NCBI GenBank assembly: GCA_030540435.1
Contig: JAUNWG010000011.1
Coordinates: 1-35,972, forward strand
Source: Eubacteriales bacterium
GTDB lineage: Bacteria; Bacillota; Clostridia; Oscillospirales; Butyricicoccaceae
Direction of reading: 5' to 3'
Length of the DNA stretch: 35,972 nt
Part shown: positions 471-22,678 of the stretch, piece by piece
Layout of the letters: every line of letters starts with the position of its first letter
Position numbering within the stretch: the first letter of the stretch is position 1
The notes under the pieces: generated by a model
The model's input: only the letters and a program-made list of their open reading frames with translations
Told to the model about the DNA's origin: nothing
The model's database searches: none
Position numbers and translations under genes: made by a program

Positions 471-478
471 GTAATTAC
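471..478. promoter_or_regulatory. Possible operator palindrome in the GT-MarR leader
   Basis: GTAATTAC is a perfect 8-base palindrome, 35 bases after the -10 box and 36 bases before the start codon. MarR proteins usually bind AT-rich palindromes near their own promoter, so autoregulation by the fused domain is conceivable. A site this short can occur by chance. Confidence 0.25.
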
Positions 479-513
479 CATATTTCCCCGGAGAAATTAG
501 GAGTTTAGATAAA

Positions 514-1875
514 ATGTCAAATGATATCGAAAGCAATACATCAGAAAATATGGATAAAATGATGCCTTTCATCAGTATTATTGTTCCTGTATATCAGGCG
601 GAAGCCACGCTGCCGCGTTGTGTAGAGAGTGTTTTGAAACAGGATTTTGAGGATTTTGAGCTGATATTAATTAATGATGGAAGTACGGATTGTTCAGCTG
701 AAATCTGTGACCGCTATAGGAAACAGGATGACAGGGTTCGTGTCGTACAGAAAGAAAATACAGGCGTTTCAGATAGCCGGAATATCGGACTTCGCATGGC
801 AAAGGGAAAATACATCCAATTTCTTGACAGTGATGACTGGCTGGCCCCGGAGGCCTGTCGTTTGCTTTTTAGTGCTGCCGAGAACAATCACTGCGATCTT
901 GTGATCGCAGATTTTTACCGTGTGATCGATGACAGGATCGCGCGAAAGGGCGCGATCAAAAAAGAGGGCCTTTTGGATTGCGATACATTTTCTACGTATT
1001 TGATGGAACGACCTTCTGATTTTTACTACGGTGTATTATGGAACAAGCTGTTCCGCAGGGACTTGATAGAACAATATAAAATATATCTGGATGAAGATAT
1101 TTCCTGGTGCGAAGACATCATCTTCAATCTGGAGTATTTTATTCGTATGGAGACCGTATATGTTTTGCGTGTACCGATATATTACTATGTAAAAAGTAGC
1201 AAGTCACTTTCCAACAGTGGGATTTCGCTTTCCCGTGTGATTCAAACCAAAATGCTGGTATCTGAATATTATAAAGAATTCTGTACACAAACAGCAAAAA
1301 ATGGCAAGTCTGATAAAGTTCCGATGTATCGTTTTTATCTGCGCGGGGCAACGGATGGAAGAATTTCGGGCCATTCGGGCAGGCTGGGAGAAGAAAGAGT
1401 AAGCCTGAATTTGGATATCGCTGCATGTGATGGAATATTTTCTGAGCAATACTTGGAAGAAAAATGCCTGCAACACTGTATGAAAACAGCAGCATACCAG
1501 TCTGACCTGACAACAGATGAGCTGTCGGTATTATTTTGTATCCATCAGTATCCAAAGCTGCGAAGCAGAAAAGAGATCCGCGAATTGACACGACTTTCAA
1601 AACGAAAAACGAAGACGATCCTGCAGAAGCTCAGATTACTTGGGTATATCGACTGGATAGAGGACATAGGAACAGAAGCCGCAAAAGAAAAGCATGATTT
1701 CAATGAGATATACATTTTGCCTGTTGCGGAGCCAATCATTGATATACTGAACTCTGTTGAGCAGAGACAAAAAGAAATCAGGTTTTTGGGGTTTAGCGAG
1801 GAAGAAAAAGAACAGTATGAGACGTATATCATGCGAATGAAACAGAATATTATTCATGCATTGACAGCAGAATAA
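514..1875 (+). CDS. Family 2 glycosyltransferase fused to a MarR-like winged-helix domain
   Basis: The protein has 453 residues. Residues about 19-245 form a GT-A fold family 2 glycosyltransferase: the ISIIVPVYQAE strand, NDGSTD (54-59) for nucleotide-sugar binding, and DSDD (105-108) as the metal-binding DXD-type motif. Such enzymes transfer a sugar from a nucleotide donor to a surface glycan or lipid acceptor at the inner membrane face. Residues about 331-450 look like MarR: LTTDELSVL, a helix-turn-helix with recognition helix near SKRKTKTILQKLRLLGYI (362-379), a wing, then two long C-terminal helices (GFSEEEKEQYETYIMRMKQNI). No membrane segment is evident. The ATG at 514 follows a TTAGGAG site. 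The ORF is continuous, so the fusion is not made by a frameshift. The acceptor is unknown. The C-terminal half could be a non-DNA-binding remnant, but its MarR layout is clear to me. Confidence 0.8.
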   Translation: MSNDIESNTSENMDKMMPFISIIVPVYQAEATLPRCVESVLKQDFEDFELILINDGSTDCSAEICDRYRKQDDRVRVVQKENTGVSDSRNIGLRMAKGKYIQFLDSDDWLAPEACRLLFSAAENNHCDLVIADFYRVIDDRIARKGAIKKEGLLDCDTFSTYLMERPSDFYYGVLWNKLFRRDLIEQYKIYLDEDISWCEDIIFNLEYFIRMETVYVLRVPIYYYVKSSKSLSNSGISLSRVIQTKMLVSEYYKEFCTQTAKNGKSDKVPMYRFYLRGATDGRISGHSGRLGEERVSLNLDIAACDGIFSEQYLEEKCLQHCMKTAAYQSDLTTDELSVLFCIHQYPKLRSRKEIRELTRLSKRKTKTILQKLRLLGYIDWIEDIGTEAAKEKHDFNEIYILPVAEPIIDILNSVEQRQKEIRFLGFSEEEKEQYETYIMRMKQNIIHALTAE

Positions 1876-2084: not shown

Positions 2085-3275
2085 ATGGAATATAAGATAG
2101 CTGACCATATTGCGGCAATGAAGCCGTCCGCAATTCGTGAAATTTTTAAGGTGCTGGTTGACCCGGAGGTTATTGCGCTTTCTGCAGGCTCCCCGGACTC
2201 CGCTTCGTTCCCGAAGGATGAAATGGCTGCGATCGGCGCTGAAATTTTTGAAAAGCAGACCGCTGTTGCATTGCAGTACGGTACAACAGAAGGCTATCAG
2301 CCGCTGCGCGACTTGACCTTTGATAGAATGAAAACAAAATACAATACCGGTTCGGATGATGATGACCTCATTATCACCACCGGCGGCCAGCAGACCATCA
2401 GCCTGTTTACGCAGTCTATGATTAATCTGGGCGATACCATTATTTGTGAGGAGCCGAGCTTTATCGGTGCACTCAATGCGTTCCGCAGCTTTGGTGCAAA
2501 GCTGAAGGGCGTCCCGATGGACGATGAAGGCATGTGCATGGATAAGCTGGAGGAAGCGCTGCAAACCACAGAAAATGTAAAGTTTATCTATGTGATTCCG
2601 ACCTTCCAGAACCCGACCGGACGTACCATGTCGCTGGAGCGTCGTCGTCAGCTGCTGGAGCTGGCAAAGAAGTATGACGTTTTGATCTTGGAGGACAATC
2701 CGTATTTCGAACTGCGCTATGAGGGTGAACCAGTTGCAACCATCAAGTCTATGGATACCGAAGGTCGTGTTGTATATGCAGGTTCCTATTCCAAGGTTCT
2801 GTCTCCTGGTATGCGTATTGGATACTGCATTGCGAATAAGGACATTATCAATCGCATGGTCGTGTGCAAGCAGGTAAGCGATGTACATACAAACCTGTAT
2901 TTCCAGATGCTGGTTGCGAAATATCTGGAAACCTGCGATATCGATGCGCATATCGCGGACATTTGCAAGCTGAACAAGATCAAGCGTGACGCCATGCTTG
3001 AGGCTTGTGACAAATATATTGATAAGCGCGTTGTGTTTACGCATCCGAATGGCGGCCTGTTTGTCTGGGGCGAGCTGCCGGAAGGCTGTGACAGCTTTAA
3101 GCTGTGCCAGCTGATTACACAGAAGAAGGTTGCTTGTGTACCAGGCAATGCATTTACTGCTGATCCGGATGCCGTGTCCAATGGCTTCCGCATGAACTTC
3201 TCCCTGCCGAGTCTGGAGCAGATCGATACTGCATGCAGCCGTATCGGTGAAGCTGTACAGGAATTTCTCAGATAA
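2085..3275 (+). CDS. PLP-dependent aminotransferase, class I/II (2-aminoadipate/aromatic type)
   Basis: This 396-residue fold-type I aminotransferase resembles the LysN/ARO8-like group, which moves an amino group from an amino acid to a 2-oxo acid in the cytosol. The ALSAGSPD opening, the PTFQNPTG motif (172-179), EDNPY (203-207) and the PLP lysine in AGSYSKVLSPGMRIGY (K237) are all present. The frame opens with a TTG at 2046, but the ATG at 2085 follows AGGAGAG at 2072-2078, and MEYKIADHIA is a natural start, so I use 2085. Its own promoter lies upstream and tagO follows after 31 bases. The substrate cannot be read from sequence; aminoadipate, aromatic or branched-chain amino acids are all possible. 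Confidence 0.88.
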   Translation: MEYKIADHIAAMKPSAIREIFKVLVDPEVIALSAGSPDSASFPKDEMAAIGAEIFEKQTAVALQYGTTEGYQPLRDLTFDRMKTKYNTGSDDDDLIITTGGQQTISLFTQSMINLGDTIICEEPSFIGALNAFRSFGAKLKGVPMDDEGMCMDKLEEALQTTENVKFIYVIPTFQNPTGRTMSLERRRQLLELAKKYDVLILEDNPYFELRYEGEPVATIKSMDTEGRVVYAGSYSKVLSPGMRIGYCIANKDIINRMVVCKQVSDVHTNLYFQMLVAKYLETCDIDAHIADICKLNKIKRDAMLEACDKYIDKRVVFTHPNGGLFVWGELPEGCDSFKLCQLITQKKVACVPGNAFTADPDAVSNGFRMNFSLPSLEQIDTACSRIGEAVQEFLR

Positions 3276-3306
3276 ATGCTGAAAAACACCGTTTTAGAGG
3301 TGCTAT

Positions 3307-4461
3307 ATGGATGAAATATATCAGGTAGTGATTAAAGTTCTTGTGGCGTTTTTTGCAGCTGGCATCCTTTCCTTTCTGCTGACGCCGCCGGTCAAACGCC
3401 TGGCACACCGCATCGGTGCGATTGATGTACCAAAGGACGCGCGCCGTATGCATAAAAAACCGATTCCGCGGCTTGGCGGACTGGCGATTTATCTCGCATT
3501 TATTATTGTCAGCGTTGCGCTGAACAAGTTAACGGTGCAGAATATAACCATTTTGATCGGTTCGGCTATCATTGTAGTGCTTGGCATTTTTGATGACCGC
3601 AATGCGCTGGGCGCAAAGTTTAAGTTCTGTGTCCAACTGATTGCAGCGGCAATTCCTGTTGTGTTTGGCAATTTGCGGATTGAGCTGATTACCAATCCGA
3701 ATTTGCTGAGCGATCACTTGTATTTACAGTTTGGCGTTATGTCCATTCCGATCACGATCATCTGGATCGTTGCCATTACCAATGCCGTCAACCTGATCGA
3801 TGGTCTGGACGGTCTGGCTGTTGGTGTTTCCGCAATTGCCTGCATGACAATGCTCGCAGTTTCGCTGCTGATTAACGAGATTGGCATTGCTGTGATTCTG
3901 GCTGCGCTTGCTGGCGCATGTGTCGGTTTTATGCCGTATAACCTAAATCCGGCAAGTATTTTCATGGGGGATACCGGCTCGACTTTTCTTGGCTATATGC
4001 TGGCGACTCTTTCCATTCAAGGCATGTTCAAGGTATATGCGATTATTTCCTTTGCAGTACCGTTCCTGATTTTGGGACTGCCGATTTTCGATACAGCGTT
4101 TGCATTTCTGCGCCGCATCCTATCAGGACGCAGCCCGTTTTCGCCTGACCGTGGTCACGTCCATCACAGATTGATCGACATGGGCTTTAACCAGAAGCAG
4201 ACAGTTGCGATTTTGTATGCAATTTCTACTGTGCTGGGACTGCTCGCTGTTGTGCTGACGACTTCGGGCGAGCTGCGTGCCATCATCATGGTTGCCGTTG
4301 TTTTGGTCACGCTTATTGTCGGCGGATTTATTTATCTGTCTATGGAACGGCATAAGATGGAGCGGCATGAACAGGAATTGCAGGAAAAGATCCGCGAGCA
4401 CGGCAGTGAAACAGAAAACGAAGAGGGTTCCGAAGGGAATCATAATTGCGGAGGAACTTGA
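3307..4461 (+). CDS. tagO: Undecaprenyl-phosphate GlcNAc-1-phosphate transferase (TagO/WecA type)
   Basis: This 384-residue polytopic membrane protein of the MraY/WecA/TagO family transfers GlcNAc-1-phosphate from UDP-GlcNAc to undecaprenyl phosphate, the first step of teichoic acid or other lipid-linked surface glycan synthesis. Signatures: DVPKDARRMH (40-49), the FDD pair (D96-D97), NLIDGLDGL (162-170), MGDTGS (220-225) and the C-terminal HVHHRL loop (284-289). About ten hydrophobic segments are visible. An AGAGGTG site precedes the ATG. The last 40 residues are a charged cytoplasmic tail. wecB starts 3 bases after the stop, so the two are probably co-translated and work together on UDP-sugar supply and lipid-linked glycan initiation. 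Confidence 0.92.
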   Translation: MDEIYQVVIKVLVAFFAAGILSFLLTPPVKRLAHRIGAIDVPKDARRMHKKPIPRLGGLAIYLAFIIVSVALNKLTVQNITILIGSAIIVVLGIFDDRNALGAKFKFCVQLIAAAIPVVFGNLRIELITNPNLLSDHLYLQFGVMSIPITIIWIVAITNAVNLIDGLDGLAVGVSAIACMTMLAVSLLINEIGIAVILAALAGACVGFMPYNLNPASIFMGDTGSTFLGYMLATLSIQGMFKVYAIISFAVPFLILGLPIFDTAFAFLRRILSGRSPFSPDRGHVHHRLIDMGFNQKQTVAILYAISTVLGLLAVVLTTSGELRAIIMVAVVLVTLIVGGFIYLSMERHKMERHEQELQEKIREHGSETENEEGSEGNHNCGGT

Positions 4462-17905: not shown

Positions 17906-18841
17906 TCAGCCATGCAGACGGCGAATAATACGGAATGCCGTGGTCTGCTCATTGATCAGCGGGGCAGAATGGGAGAAGAATACAATGCCGTCACACGGCG
18001 CATAAACACGATTGATGACATATCCCTCCAAAGGATGGATGATTTGCGCCAATTCGTCACCATAGGAAACTTCATCCCCTGGATGTTTGATTCGCATGAA
18101 AATGCCGCCGCAGGGTGACTGCACAGAACGCAGCTCATCCTCTTGGATGATGGAAGCAATGTAGCCGCTGTGGCAATGATATTTCAGGATGCCCATGCGG
18201 GACAGGAAACGCAGAACGGAAACGATCGCGATACGAGCGGATTCCTCATCAATATGGTCGGTTTCCTTGGTATAAACGGAGAATGCATTGGTATCCCAAA
18301 TCTGCCAGTTATAATTTAATGTACCGGTATCATACGGACGCGGCTTGCGGATCAGTGCATACGGCAGACCGAACAGGTTCGCCAGAGATGTAGATTGGAA
18401 ACCGGTATCCATCATGCGGACATGCGGAATAAAGTCGCCCCGCATATAAAAAGAAGGGAATTGGATACCATACCGGTAGCCCTGAACCTTTTCAAAAATA
18501 CCAGCGGCAATACGTTGCGTTGTTTCACCGTGGTCATAGCCCGGATACATACGGTTAATATCTGAATTATCCATCGCCCAGAAACGTTTGCCGATATTCA
18601 TGGAATAATGGTTCACGGAAGGAACTACAAGGATCTCATTGCCCTTAACAAGCAGGCCGCGTTTTTCAAACCGTTCAAGCGTATGTACCAGCTGGGAGCA
18701 GATATATAGCTGTTGGATCTCATTGCCGCGCATTGCGCCTACGATACACACGGATTTTTCGCCGCGGCCAAACCGATACCCGGTTATGTTCAGTGGGTCG
18801 CGATATGGGGAGGGAAGTTCAAACAGTGTTTCCTTATTCAT
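17906..18841 (-). CDS. Aspartoacylase/AstE-like protein with a degenerate zinc site
   Basis: This 311-residue protein belongs to the succinylglutamate desuccinylase/aspartoacylase branch of the M14 fold. An ungapped comparison with its neighbour shows that the first zinc motif HGDE has become RGNE (R38, E41), and that the second ligand His, in DIHAS, is Pro (P129). DINRMYPG (94-101), carrying the substrate-binding Arg, is kept. The C-terminal beta domain (PCGGIFMRIKHPGDEVSYGDELAQI) is intact. It is therefore probably not a zinc hydrolase by the usual chemistry; a regulatory, binding or scaffold role for the partner is likely. The frame is open to 18883, but the ATG at 18841 follows AGGAGGAC and overlaps the upstream stop by 8 bases. 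Confidence 0.8.
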   Translation of the reverse strand: MNKETLFELPSPYRDPLNITGYRFGRGEKSVCIVGAMRGNEIQQLYICSQLVHTLERFEKRGLLVKGNEILVVPSVNHYSMNIGKRFWAMDNSDINRMYPGYDHGETTQRIAAGIFEKVQGYRYGIQFPSFYMRGDFIPHVRMMDTGFQSTSLANLFGLPYALIRKPRPYDTGTLNYNWQIWDTNAFSVYTKETDHIDEESARIAIVSVLRFLSRMGILKYHCHSGYIASIIQEDELRSVQSPCGGIFMRIKHPGDEVSYGDELAQIIHPLEGYVINRVYAPCDGIVFFSHSAPLINEQTTAFRIIRRLHG

Positions 18842-19793
18842 TTTCGATGTCCTCCTCATATTCATCGTCCAGAATGCGTGCAATCAATGAACCGCTATAT
18901 ACGACCGGATATTCACGCAGGGTAAATACCCTGCCGCTTACTTCCGCTTTGACGTTATGAAGAATCTCACCAGTAGCCGGATAGACGATATCACCGATAT
19001 GATCCCCTTCATTGACATGCGTCCAGTGCTCAATTGCCGGTATAAAAATACCGGATGCTTCCGCGTTGATAAAGCTGACATGGCGGTCACGCGATACGAT
19101 TGGCTCCCGAACCGCTGGCGCCTCGCCGGACCAGATACCCATTTCACACATGATGCGGAAAATACCGTCGACCAGCTGTATGCCGTAGTCCTTTGTAATA
19201 CGCATACCTACACCCATCTCAGCGACCAGGCAGGGGACTCCTGTGACATTCAGACTGTATGCCAGTGTTGCCTCCAGAACAGTTGCGGAAGAGTGCACCC
19301 AGACAAAATCCGTGTTCAGCAGCTTGGCATATGGCAGCAGAACATCTGCGGACAGCTCATTGACACGCACCTGCGGAGTCTCTCGCAGGAAAATATTCGA
19401 TGCATGGATATCAATCGTCATATCAGCACTGGCCATATCCTGCATGATCTGCGCCGCGACATATTCTGTTGTTGCGCCGGTGTTTGTTCCCGGAAAAATA
19501 CGGTTCATGTCCAGATCGAACATTGGAACAGAGCGGGTAATGGAATCGATGCCCAGCGGATTCAAAGCAGGATAGATGTCTACAATGCCATGTAGCAGTT
19601 CGGGATGCGCGTTGATCCGGCGTGCCAGCTCATAACAAACATATTGCCCTTCCAGCTCGTCACCGTGCGTACCTGTTATGACACAGATACGTTTCATGCC
19701 GGAATGGGCGCCTTCCTCCGGTTCAAACCGGTTTTTGATGATTTTCCAGCGTTCATCGACCGGCAGACCGACAGATACAACTTCTTGAATCAT
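18834..19793 (-). CDS. Aspartoacylase/succinylglutamate desuccinylase family zinc hydrolase
   Basis: This 319-residue protein keeps the full zinc site: H43 and E46 in TGTHGDELEG, and H130 in MTIDIHAS. It also has the DMNRIFPG arginine motif (95-102) and a likely catalytic Glu in LVAEMGVG (E192). Family members remove acyl groups from amino acids, or trim amide-linked residues, by a carboxypeptidase-like mechanism. A C-terminal beta-sandwich-like domain (about 225-305) follows. There is no signal peptide, so it is cytosolic. AGGGATAATTC precedes the ATG. The substrate is unknown; its position after ATP-grasp and transglutaminase genes suggests a small peptide or an amide conjugate made by them. 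Confidence 0.86.
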   Translation of the reverse strand: MIQEVVSVGLPVDERWKIIKNRFEPEEGAHSGMKRICVITGTHGDELEGQYVCYELARRINAHPELLHGIVDIYPALNPLGIDSITRSVPMFDLDMNRIFPGTNTGATTEYVAAQIMQDMASADMTIDIHASNIFLRETPQVRVNELSADVLLPYAKLLNTDFVWVHSSATVLEATLAYSLNVTGVPCLVAEMGVGMRITKDYGIQLVDGIFRIMCEMGIWSGEAPAVREPIVSRDRHVSFINAEASGIFIPAIEHWTHVNEGDHIGDIVYPATGEILHNVKAEVSGRVFTLREYPVVYSGSLIARILDDEYEEDIENE

Positions 19794-19821
19794 GAATTAT
19801 CCCTCCATAACGCCATAATAA

Positions 19822-19844
19822 CCGGCAAGCGTGATACTTGTCGG
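19822..19844 (-). repeat. Inverted repeat upstream of the aspartoacylase pair
   Basis: CCGGCAAG (19822-19829) and CTTGTCGG (19837-19844) match at seven of eight positions around seven bases. It could be an operator or an mRNA hairpin in the leader of the pair. There is no T tract, so a terminator is unlikely. Confidence 0.4.
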
Positions 19845-19873
19845 TCAATATGGTGTGTTTTTATGCTATTTTA

Positions 19874-19889
19874 TACTCTATATAGAGTA
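19874..19889. promoter_or_regulatory. Perfect 16-base palindrome after the transglutaminase gene
   Basis: TACTCTATATAGAGTA is fully self-complementary, two bases past the transglutaminase stop codon in the 97-base gap before the aspartoacylase pair. It has no spacer and no following T tract, which suits a dimeric repressor site better than a terminator. No regulator gene is visible nearby. Confidence 0.45.
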
Positions 19890-19890
19890 G

Positions 19891-20682
19891 TTACAGGTCG
19901 CGGACTGTTACATTTACGGTTTGTTTTTGTGAAACGGTATGCAGCTCATAGCCCGGTATACGGAAAAAGCCCTTATCCAGGATACAGTCATTGTAATCAC
20001 GTCCTCTGGTCAGACAAATATAATCACTGTTGATCATGCAATTATTGGTAGGGTCAAGGCCGCACCAACGCTTGCCGTCAAAAATTTCAATCCATGCATG
20101 GGTTTCTCCCTCGCCATACAGGTAACCAACGACATAGCGTGCCGGGATGCCATCACGGCGGCACAGTGCGATCATCAATTGTGTATAATCCTGACATACA
20201 CCCTTGCCGAGCGCTGCTGCTTCTTCTGCTGTCGTATGTACATTTGTTACACCTTTTTCATACGTCATGGTGTTGTAAAGCAGATGCATCCATTCCTGCG
20301 CACGGGTAACAGGATCGACACTTGTGATTTCTGCCCCAGCATATATCGCTTCAATTGCTTTGCCCGGATGTGTCAGCTCGGAAGGATAGCGGTAAATCGG
20401 GTGCAACGGACCTTCAATATACGGCGTATCCTTTACCCACGCGATGCCGGAAACAGAGTAAGAAAACGTATCATGCTCATAATAACAGTCACCGATCCAC
20501 ATGGTTGTGCCCCATTCATCTGTAACAGCTGACAGATGCTCAGTGGGTGTTACATCTTTCTTTAAGTCGCAGATGATCTGACGGCTGTCTGTGGTAGGGA
20601 CAAGCCGCAGGGAAAAGCTGTGTGAGATAATCGGGGTATCAAATTCGAGCTTTTTACAGTGCGAAAAATACAGCTTTCTCAT
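19891..20682 (-). CDS. Transglutaminase-like cysteine protease-fold protein
   Basis: This 263-residue protein has an N-terminal beta-rich module (about 1-95, the usual bacterial transglutaminase N-terminal region) and a papain-like transglutaminase core. The catalytic triad is visible: C163 in GKGVCQDYTQ, H195 in ETHAWIE and D210 in GLDPTNN. Such proteins either cleave or form amide bonds. It has no signal peptide and is probably cytosolic. It lies 20 bases after the alpha-E gene. The trio with alpha-E and permuted ATP-grasp was noted by Iyer and Aravind in their comparative work on amidoligases, as a predicted peptide synthesis or modification module; its chemistry is unproven. Confidence 0.88.
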   Translation of the reverse strand: MRKLYFSHCKKLEFDTPIISHSFSLRLVPTTDSRQIICDLKKDVTPTEHLSAVTDEWGTTMWIGDCYYEHDTFSYSVSGIAWVKDTPYIEGPLHPIYRYPSELTHPGKAIEAIYAGAEITSVDPVTRAQEWMHLLYNTMTYEKGVTNVHTTAEEAAALGKGVCQDYTQLMIALCRRDGIPARYVVGYLYGEGETHAWIEIFDGKRWCGLDPTNNCMINSDYICLTRGRDYNDCILDKGFFRIPGYELHTVSQKQTVNVTVRDL

Positions 20683-20702
20683 ACACTTTAAACTCCTTAC
20701 AA

Positions 20703-21383
20703 TTATTCAGTAATCAGCTGCATCAGCTGGCGGGCGCATTCTCTGCGCCAGCCCGGCACATGCATTACTTCCTCACGCACACGTGCGTGGAGACAGTCAA
20801 GGATTTCATCATCATATGCGATGCCGCTCTGCTTGAGGCGCGGTGTCATTTTACATAATGCGCGTTCAATAGCTGATGTTGGAAAGCTCAGGCGCAGATA
20901 AAGGTCAAGCCGCTCAACATAGCGACCGCATTTGATCACGCTGCGTGCGCGCTGGTCGAATACATTGTCGTCAATGCTTGCCCAGAATGCCAGAAGGTAA
21001 TCCTGTACTGGTAATAATGCCATAGTCGGTACGTCCGAATGGGAGGAAGCAGCATAGATATCCAGAGACATCTGGATGTAAGCCAGTGAATCGCTTGTGA
21101 TCTCATTGCGCAGTACAATGCCGTTGTCATACGAGCGGTTGAGCGATGTAAAAATAGAATTCGGGTCATCCTTGTCAAACAGGAAGCGATGGATAAAATC
21201 CGATTCACTCTCATAAATATTCGGGATATCCAGACGCTCGCACAGTTTTTTATATGCATCGGCCTGACTATCGATCATTTGGTCATAATAATTATAAAAC
21301 GCATTTAGTGTGGTATACACACGTTCTGTATATCGTCCCAGCCAATAAAGGCTGTCTCTTTTTTCTACCGAGAAAGTACCCAT
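20703..21383 (-). CDS. Alpha-E domain protein (DUF403)
   Basis: This 226-residue, all-helical protein matches the alpha-E family: the N-terminal RDSLYWLGRYTERVYTTLNAFYNYYD motif region (9-34), conserved LRNEITSDSLAYI, and GRYVERLDLYLR with its Glu/Arg pair. The domain nearly always accompanies transglutaminase-like and circularly permuted ATP-grasp genes. Its activity is unknown; conserved acidic residues suggest a binding or catalytic role in peptide handling. Its start overlaps the end of the ATP-grasp gene by 19 bases, so the two are translationally coupled and probably made in fixed ratio. Confidence 0.88.
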   Translation of the reverse strand: MGTFSVEKRDSLYWLGRYTERVYTTLNAFYNYYDQMIDSQADAYKKLCERLDIPNIYESESDFIHRFLFDKDDPNSIFTSLNRSYDNGIVLRNEITSDSLAYIQMSLDIYAASSHSDVPTMALLPVQDYLLAFWASIDDNVFDQRARSVIKCGRYVERLDLYLRLSFPTSAIERALCKMTPRLKQSGIAYDDEILDCLHARVREEVMHVPGWRRECARQLMQLITE

Positions 21384-22678
21384 GTGTCCTTAAATCCTCC
21401 TCCTTGCGATGAGTTAACAATAAACGAATCCGGATTGCGCGAGAAACGGGTCAGACCGCTTGCCCAGACCTTGGTTTCCGCTCCGCTGAGTACAAATGCA
21501 CGAAGGTCTGCCTTACGCATGACGCGCTTGCCTTCATCCATGATTTCCAGATCACGGAAGTCAATGACCTCCTGTGCGATAAAGCGGCGTGGCTCACGCT
21601 CGATGAGCGCTCTCCAGTCTGCCAACTCCTGTTCAGACATTTTGTCGCCAAATACAACGCCATAGCCGCCTGCTTCTGCAACGTCCTTGATAACCAGATG
21701 GTCAAGATTTTCGAGGACAATTTTCTTATCCTCTTCGTACATTGGCAGATACGTAGGTGCGTTATTGAGGATCGGTTCCTCACCCAGATAATAACGAATC
21801 ATCTTCGGAACAAAATAATAAATACCCTTATCGTCTGCAACACCATTGCCCGGTGCATTGATGATGGCGACATTGCCGGCACGGTAAGCAGCCATCAGAT
21901 TTGGAACACCAATAACAGAATCCGAGCGGAAGGTACATGGATCAAGAAACTCATCCGACTGACGACGGTAGACGGCACCAACACGCTGCTTTTTGCCATG
22001 ATCGCCGCGGTAATAAAGCTTACAATCCTGTACAAACAGGTCATTCGGCATCGCAAGAACGCTGTCTGTTTTTTCTGCGAGATAGGAATGCTCAAAAAAT
22101 GCTGCATTATATCGTCCAGGGGTCAGAATAACATTGATGCCGCCGAGATTGACATTGTCCATTGTTTCGCGCAGCATGTTTGCATAGTCGCGGTTATCTC
22201 GGACGGCATATCTGCGGAACACATCCGGGCTTGCTTTGCGGGATAGTGCGCGTGCAATCAGCGGATAGGAGGCGCCGGACGGAATACGTAGATTGTCCTC
22301 AAGTACATACCATGTACCATCCTTTGCCTGTACAAGGTCAATGCCGGAAATATGGCTGTAGATACCTGCGGGCGGAGTAATACCTTCACATTCAGGAAGA
22401 TAGCCGGAGGAGGAAAAAACAAAATCCTCTGGTACAATACCATCCTGAATAATTTTTTTTGCTCCATAAATATCTGCAAGAAACAGATTCAATGCGTCCA
22501 CGCGTTGCTTTAAACCGCGCTCCAGATACTCAAAATCATTTGCCGGAATAATACGCGGGATCGGATCAAATGGAAACAGCTGTTCATGAAACGTTCCGTT
22601 TTTGTATATACCGAACTTTACGCCGTACCGTGCAAGCAGCACGTTTATATTGTCGCCATGAGCGATAATATCCTTCAT
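21365..22678 (-). CDS. Circularly permuted ATP-grasp ligase (DUF404/DUF407 type)
   Basis: This 437-residue protein belongs to the circularly permuted type 2 ATP-grasp family, predicted amide-forming ligases. Landmarks are VLEDNLRIPSGASYPLIAR (126-144), the INAPGNGVADDKGIYYFVP stretch, LVIKDVAEAGGYGVVFG, the metal/ATP region DLRAFVLSG, and a C-terminal glycine-rich SSQGGGFKDTWV. It should activate a carboxylate as acyl-phosphate using ATP and join it to an amine; neither substrate is known. It is the first gene of the operon, following a strong promoter with a structured leader, and GGGAGAG precedes the ATG. Length is in the usual range, with no fused alpha-E or transglutaminase domain. Confidence 0.9.
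   Translation of the reverse strand: MKDIIAHGDNINVLLARYGVKFGIYKNGTFHEQLFPFDPIPRIIPANDFEYLERGLKQRVDALNLFLADIYGAKKIIQDGIVPEDFVFSSSGYLPECEGITPPAGIYSHISGIDLVQAKDGTWYVLEDNLRIPSGASYPLIARALSRKASPDVFRRYAVRDNRDYANMLRETMDNVNLGGINVILTPGRYNAAFFEHSYLAEKTDSVLAMPNDLFVQDCKLYYRGDHGKKQRVGAVYRRQSDEFLDPCTFRSDSVIGVPNLMAAYRAGNVAIINAPGNGVADDKGIYYFVPKMIRYYLGEEPILNNAPTYLPMYEEDKKIVLENLDHLVIKDVAEAGGYGVVFGDKMSEQELADWRALIEREPRRFIAQEVIDFRDLEIMDEGKRVMRKADLRAFVLSGAETKVWASGLTRFSRNPDSFIVNSSQGGGFKDTWVLSR

Follow-up and report, generated by a model that had tools for sequence, protein, structure and literature searches.

A family 2 glycosyltransferase fused to a MarR-type winged-helix module recurs among related bacteria of the Clostridia

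The fusion gene and its genomic context

The window, meaning the whole stretch of DNA analysed here (35,972 nucleotides), comprises the first 36 kb of a 45.7-kb contig from the 2.7-Mb genome of a member of the Butyricicoccaceae. An intact gene on the plus strand (514..1875), starting with ATG and preceded by a Shine-Dalgarno sequence, AGGAG, ten bases 5' of the start codon (499..503, plus strand), encodes one polypeptide of 453 aa, in which a family 2 glycosyltransferase (GT2) domain is followed by a MarR-type winged-helix module. GC content is 0.39-0.41 over positions 1-2000 and mostly 0.46-0.54 elsewhere in the window, and GC3 is 0.43 for both ORFs in the first 2 kb compared with 0.46-0.66 for the remaining ORFs, confirming the AT-richness that the first-pass annotation had noticed around the fusion gene. 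The contig begins with a C-terminal fragment of a DUF1836-type protein (2-301; PF08876, E=6e-4, below the cut-off), which shares the low GC3 of 0.43 with the fusion gene, and the two may have a common origin. Further downstream, reading of the sequence by eye indicated a run of minus-strand ORFs (17906-22678) resembling two AstE/AspA-type deacylases, a transglutaminase-like protein, an alpha-E protein and a circularly permuted ATP-grasp protein, after which comes a plus-strand ORF resembling asparagine synthetase.

The glycosyltransferase domain and linker

Residues 21-187 match PF00535 (Glycos_transf_2) at E=1e-38 (133.3 bits, the cut-off being 23.3), and together with the structural matches this delimits a GT-A family 2 glycosyltransferase domain with C-terminal helices at residues about 17-281 (562..1356, plus strand), carrying the previously named motifs NDGSTD (residues 54-59) and DSDD (residues 105-108; 826..837, plus strand). 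In the fusion-family alignment, D105, D107 and D108 of this metal/donor motif are invariant, as are E200 and D201, the ED of WCED (1111..1116, plus strand), and the DxD, WCED, YYGVxWNK and YYYVK motifs of the GT part as a whole are invariant or nearly so. D201 probably acts as the catalytic base, judging from other GT2 enzymes, TarS among them. The domain is followed by a family-specific linker motif, LGxER, present in the window copy as LGEER (residues 291-295; 1384..1398, plus strand), in which L291 is 100% and G292 and E294 are 94% conserved. The mean frequency of the most common residue is 0.72 in the GT part, compared with 0.38 in the HTH half and 0.42 in the C-terminal half of the MarR part. 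No transmembrane segment is apparent in the fusion protein.

All whole-model PDB matches listed were glycosyltransferases, the closest structures being CgT, TarP, TarS and RmlT (Z 26-29), with VIA-align Z scores of 29.5 to CgT (5hea), 27 to TarP and 26.8 to TarS, the TarP and TarS matches extending over residues 17-283, and sequence identity to this group over the GT part of 23-28%. The wall teichoic acid GT2 transferases TarS, TarP and RmlT, as well as CgT, whose structure is a hexamer, thus resemble the fusion in possessing a GT-A catalytic domain with C-terminal helices. TarS consists of a catalytic domain, a helical bundle, a linker and a C-terminal trimerisation domain, the basic grooves of which have been proposed to bind polymer (PMC5156392). 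However, the C-terminal part of TarS is built from stacked Ig-like carbohydrate-binding modules that trimerise, whereas that of the fusion has a MarR fold.

Fold and homology of the C-terminal module

When residues 330-453, the span originally assigned to a MarR-like region, were searched alone, the window copy gave no better than E about 0.02 with MarR_2 and HTH_27, under the Pfam cut-off, NCBIfam models were no more decisive for its C-terminal part, and MarR-family chains in the PDB matched that part at a similar level (E about 0.02), which is too weak to settle a MarR assignment from this copy alone. Its relatives were decisive: a profile built from five fusions alone reached SlyA/MarR structures at E=5e-10 across nearly the whole MarR fold, and the Pfam gathering score was exceeded in four scanned fusions, by MarR_2 in L068, L069 and L098 and by MarR in L070. 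An AlphaFold model of the full protein had a mean pLDDT of 86.9, exceeding 90 across most of residues 290-450 except the wing, and the C-terminal domain modelled alone had a pLDDT of 91.8; the stand-alone sequence L090 was present in the alignments behind these models, whereas the five-fusion profile was free of it. The modelled helices are α1 (308-330), α2 (334-345), α3 (352-359), α4 (363-375), α5 (403-423) and α6 (429-451), with wing strands at 379-383 and 396-401, and the dimer helices are already present in the monomer model. The match list of the whole model being taken up by the GT domain, the C-terminal domain was modelled and searched on its own. The structural matches listed for it were MarR regulators without exception, with SlyA at the top (Z 14.6, 2.8 Å, 132 residues) and the DNA-bound forms of RovA (Z 14.2) and SlyA among them.

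With every MarR element modelled and only MarR regulators among the structural matches listed, the module is complete, including both dimer helices, and extends over residues about 306-453 (1429..1872, plus strand), so that the layout described in the first-pass annotation holds but its start at residue 330 was placed too late. It includes a recognition helix α4, KRKTKTILQKLRL (residues 363-375; 1600..1638, plus strand), with a net charge of +6 over residues 361-376, a wing (residues 379-402; 1648..1719, plus strand) with a net charge of -5 that lacks the D-x-R-R motif, and, following GFSEEE, a C-terminal dimer helix α6 (residues 429-451; 1798..1866, plus strand). The profile and model evidence thus identifies the C-terminal part as a genuine winged helix of the MarR type, complete with terminal dimer helices, and the alternative that it is an ordinary helical extension of a glycosyltransferase, to which the weak matches of the window copy alone might have pointed, is practically untenable given the fusion-only profile match, the dozens of stand-alone MarR proteins matched by the same kind of profile, and the exclusively MarR structural matches listed.

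Distribution and history of the fusion

Altogether, 31 distinct full-length fusions, the window copy and a phage-collection record included, were recovered from four GTDB families, and the architecture is therefore real and recurrent. A search with the C-terminal 190 residues recovered two full-length relatives within the order and a further one on the 4.3-kb phage-collection record, and profiles built from these recovered one more fusion in the class. Profile searches by family then revealed fusions in 23/230 genomes of f28, 5/150 of f13 and 1/98 of f20, corresponding to about 10% of the sampled genomes in one family. A phylum-wide sample of 398 genomes yielded no further fusion at E up to 1e-8, and a profile search of 86 other genomes of the window's own family yielded only stand-alone MarR-sized frames.

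In a tree of MarR modules, the fusions group together, requiring two label changes compared with about 26 when labels were shuffled, which is compatible with a single origin of the fusion. The distribution is patchy, and in the fusion tree the window copy groups, on a long branch, with L078 (f28) and L097 (f13), both from other families. The separate history proposed earlier for this region is supported: as the window carries the only fusion among 87 genomes of its family and the first 2 kb are low in GC and GC3, horizontal gain of the gene is suggested, with incomplete sampling and loss as alternatives. A phage or plasmid origin was rejected, as no plasmid match and no relative among viral contigs were found and the neighbours on MT839439 look bacterial. 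This record, MT839439.1 (L017; fusion at 2723-4234), is labelled 'Bacteriophage sp.' but reads as bacterial chromosome, with neighbours that by eye resemble a cobyrinate a,c-diamide synthase and a DUF362-type Fe-S protein. Over some 45 residues at its C-terminal end, the fusion ORF of this record looks like an XdhC-type tail, which may reflect an assembly chimera or a second fusion. In addition, the 299-aa family member encoded by L089 (1447-2346, minus strand) stops short of the MarR module and is a natural GT-only derivative; loss of the MarR part by frameshift was rejected there, as no MarR remnant was found downstream.

DNA-reading features, leaders and gene neighbourhoods

As a rule, MarR proteins recognise palindromic sites, placing the wing in the minor groove, and autoregulation is frequent among such ligand-responsive regulators (PMC5487221). 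The fusion module shares with MarR/SlyA regulators (SlyA 3qpt/3q5f, RovA 4aij, MarR 3bpv) the α1-α6 and wing topology, the dimer helices and a basic recognition helix, but it sits behind a glycosyltransferase, has mostly lost D-x-R-R, varies in wing length and lacks a palindromic leader site. The MarR modules of 30 fusions were compared with 65 stand-alone relatives from the same searches. The D-x-R-R wing motif, which makes the minor-groove contact, was found in 3/30 fusions and 31/65 stand-alone relatives (p=0.0004), being absent from the window copy and 27/30 fusions overall; a few fusions retain a D-R-R wing, such as L069 with QDRRL. Wing length ranges from 13 to 57 residues in fusions but is a near-constant 19 in stand-alone relatives, and the least variable helix is α1 in the former, whereas it is the HTH helices that vary least in the latter. 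Conversely, α4 is more basic in fusions (+3.2 vs +1.6, p=2e-6), and K/R at position 372 is kept in 27/30 of them. L032, L067, L070 and L079 carry long lysine/glutamate-rich wing insertions of up to 57 residues, e.g. KKKKKRRPDIRK, through which nucleic acid, membrane or polymer could possibly be tethered electrostatically.

The palindrome GTAATTAC, named in the first-pass annotation as a feature of the gene's own leader, is indeed present (471..478), but it was rejected as an operator: an 8-bp palindrome arises by chance in 29% of shuffles of positions 440-513, another, likewise non-significant inverted repeat in the same leader outranks it, and fusion leaders generally show no palindrome excess. 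In the genes' own 120-bp leaders, with start codons set by a slightly different rule for each set, shuffles keeping single-base composition only, and some fusion genes closely trailing an upstream gene, the best inverted repeat reached P up to 0.05 in 3/30 fusions, with uniform P values, whereas inverted repeats were enriched among stand-alone relatives (25/65, Kolmogorov-Smirnov p=5e-11; e.g. TAATAGTTAGTCGACTAACTATTA), a difference significant between the sets (Mann-Whitney p=6e-5). The palindromes found in stand-alone leaders indicate that the method detects MarR-type operators where these are present, and that the fusion genes are without them. No conserved leader blocks were seen among related fusions, including a same-genus pair. 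Likewise, flanks of up to about 10 kb either side of the fusions showed no conserved gene neighbours, the sole widespread neighbour cluster being a common ABC-transporter ATPase that is not adjacent to them.

Possible roles of the MarR module

We favour, at about even confidence, the reading that the MarR module serves mainly as a dimerisation and surface- or acceptor-binding part of a surface-polymer glycosyltransferase. Under this scenario, a cytoplasmic inverting GT2 (GT-A) enzyme of the TarP/TarS/CgT structural kind would have acquired a whole MarR regulator at its C-terminus, apparently once, and the fusion would then have spread patchily through related bacteria of one class. The module would most probably join the enzyme into a homodimer via α1, α5 and α6, while the basic HTH face would now mainly serve the enzyme, holding a polyanionic acceptor or a membrane surface as is thought for the oligomerisation domain of TarS, instead of reading a palindromic operator beside its own gene. 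The invariant catalytic residues would fit an active transferase, and the stronger conservation of the GT part than of the HTH half, the wing and α4 differences, the low variability of α1, the chance-level leader palindromes and the lack of conserved neighbours all argue for the same reading, as do the absence of an apparent transmembrane segment and the 31 proteins that carry both domains in one ORF. However, the recognition helix is more basic than in stand-alone relatives and keeps K/R at 372, as if the module still bound nucleic acid, a few D-R-R wings persist, as in L069, and, beyond their own leaders, MarR proteins can regulate in trans from remote sites.

A precedent for an enzyme-serving winged helix comes from a clostridial enzyme of polysaccharide loci, whose MarR_2-like winged helix has been proposed to function in substrate recognition and not in DNA binding (PMC4000134). 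In a surface-polysaccharide setting, that enzyme, like the fusion, pairs a catalytic domain with a winged helix at its C-terminus whose relationship to MarR_2 is distant, but it is peptidase-like with a permuted winged helix, whereas the fusion joins a GT2 to an unpermuted, full MarR module.

A second reading takes up the first-pass proposal of a trigger enzyme: the fusion would be a working MarR-type regulator of sites elsewhere in the genome, with its DNA binding governed by whether donor or acceptor occupies the GT. This reading remains a serious contender, albeit a less probable one: the MarR architecture is complete, its closest structural matches listed include the DNA-bound forms of RovA and SlyA, four of the scanned fusions exceed the Pfam cut-off, and the recognition helix is basic. 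Set against these features are the loss of the wing motif and the unconstrained wing length in most fusions, own leaders without palindromes where the same test detects them for stand-alone relatives, a leader that is unconserved even in the same-genus pair, and the lack of conserved neighbour genes as an obvious target. Thus, the fusion of a GT2 to a true MarR module stands, autoregulation through an operator in the gene's own promoter finds no support, and the trigger role is weakened. The more specific form, in which a single protein makes up the circuit, an active surface-polymer GT sensing its own donor or acceptor and controlling distant genes via a MarR module whose wing is non-canonical and often rich in lysine, appears rather unlikely.

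Enzymes and DNA-binding type domains are joined in one chain in several trigger enzymes and enzyme-regulator fusions, including BirA, PutA, MocR and MarR-GNAT proteins. The GT-MarR fusion differs from these in that its HTH is less conserved than its enzyme and its DNA binding is only putative.

The MarR module is unlikely to be a passenger, passive and in decay, that is retained only because the fusion is stable, although the far greater variability of the MarR part relative to the GT part, the long branch of the window copy and the complete lack of the module in L089 could be taken in that sense. L089 is a single truncated member against 31 intact fusions across dozens of genera, α1 and the linker motif are well conserved, and the domain is modelled with confidence.

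Significance of the fusion

In the open-access literature searched, no description of a GT-MarR fusion, nor of a glycosyltransferase acting as a trigger enzyme, was found. Both halves belong to well-known families. With stand-alone relatives serving as positive control, the leader test helps to separate the regulatory from the oligomerisation reading. Either surface-sugar synthesis may be directly linked to gene control in these bacteria, or a whole transcription factor may have been taken over as an oligomerisation part of an enzyme.
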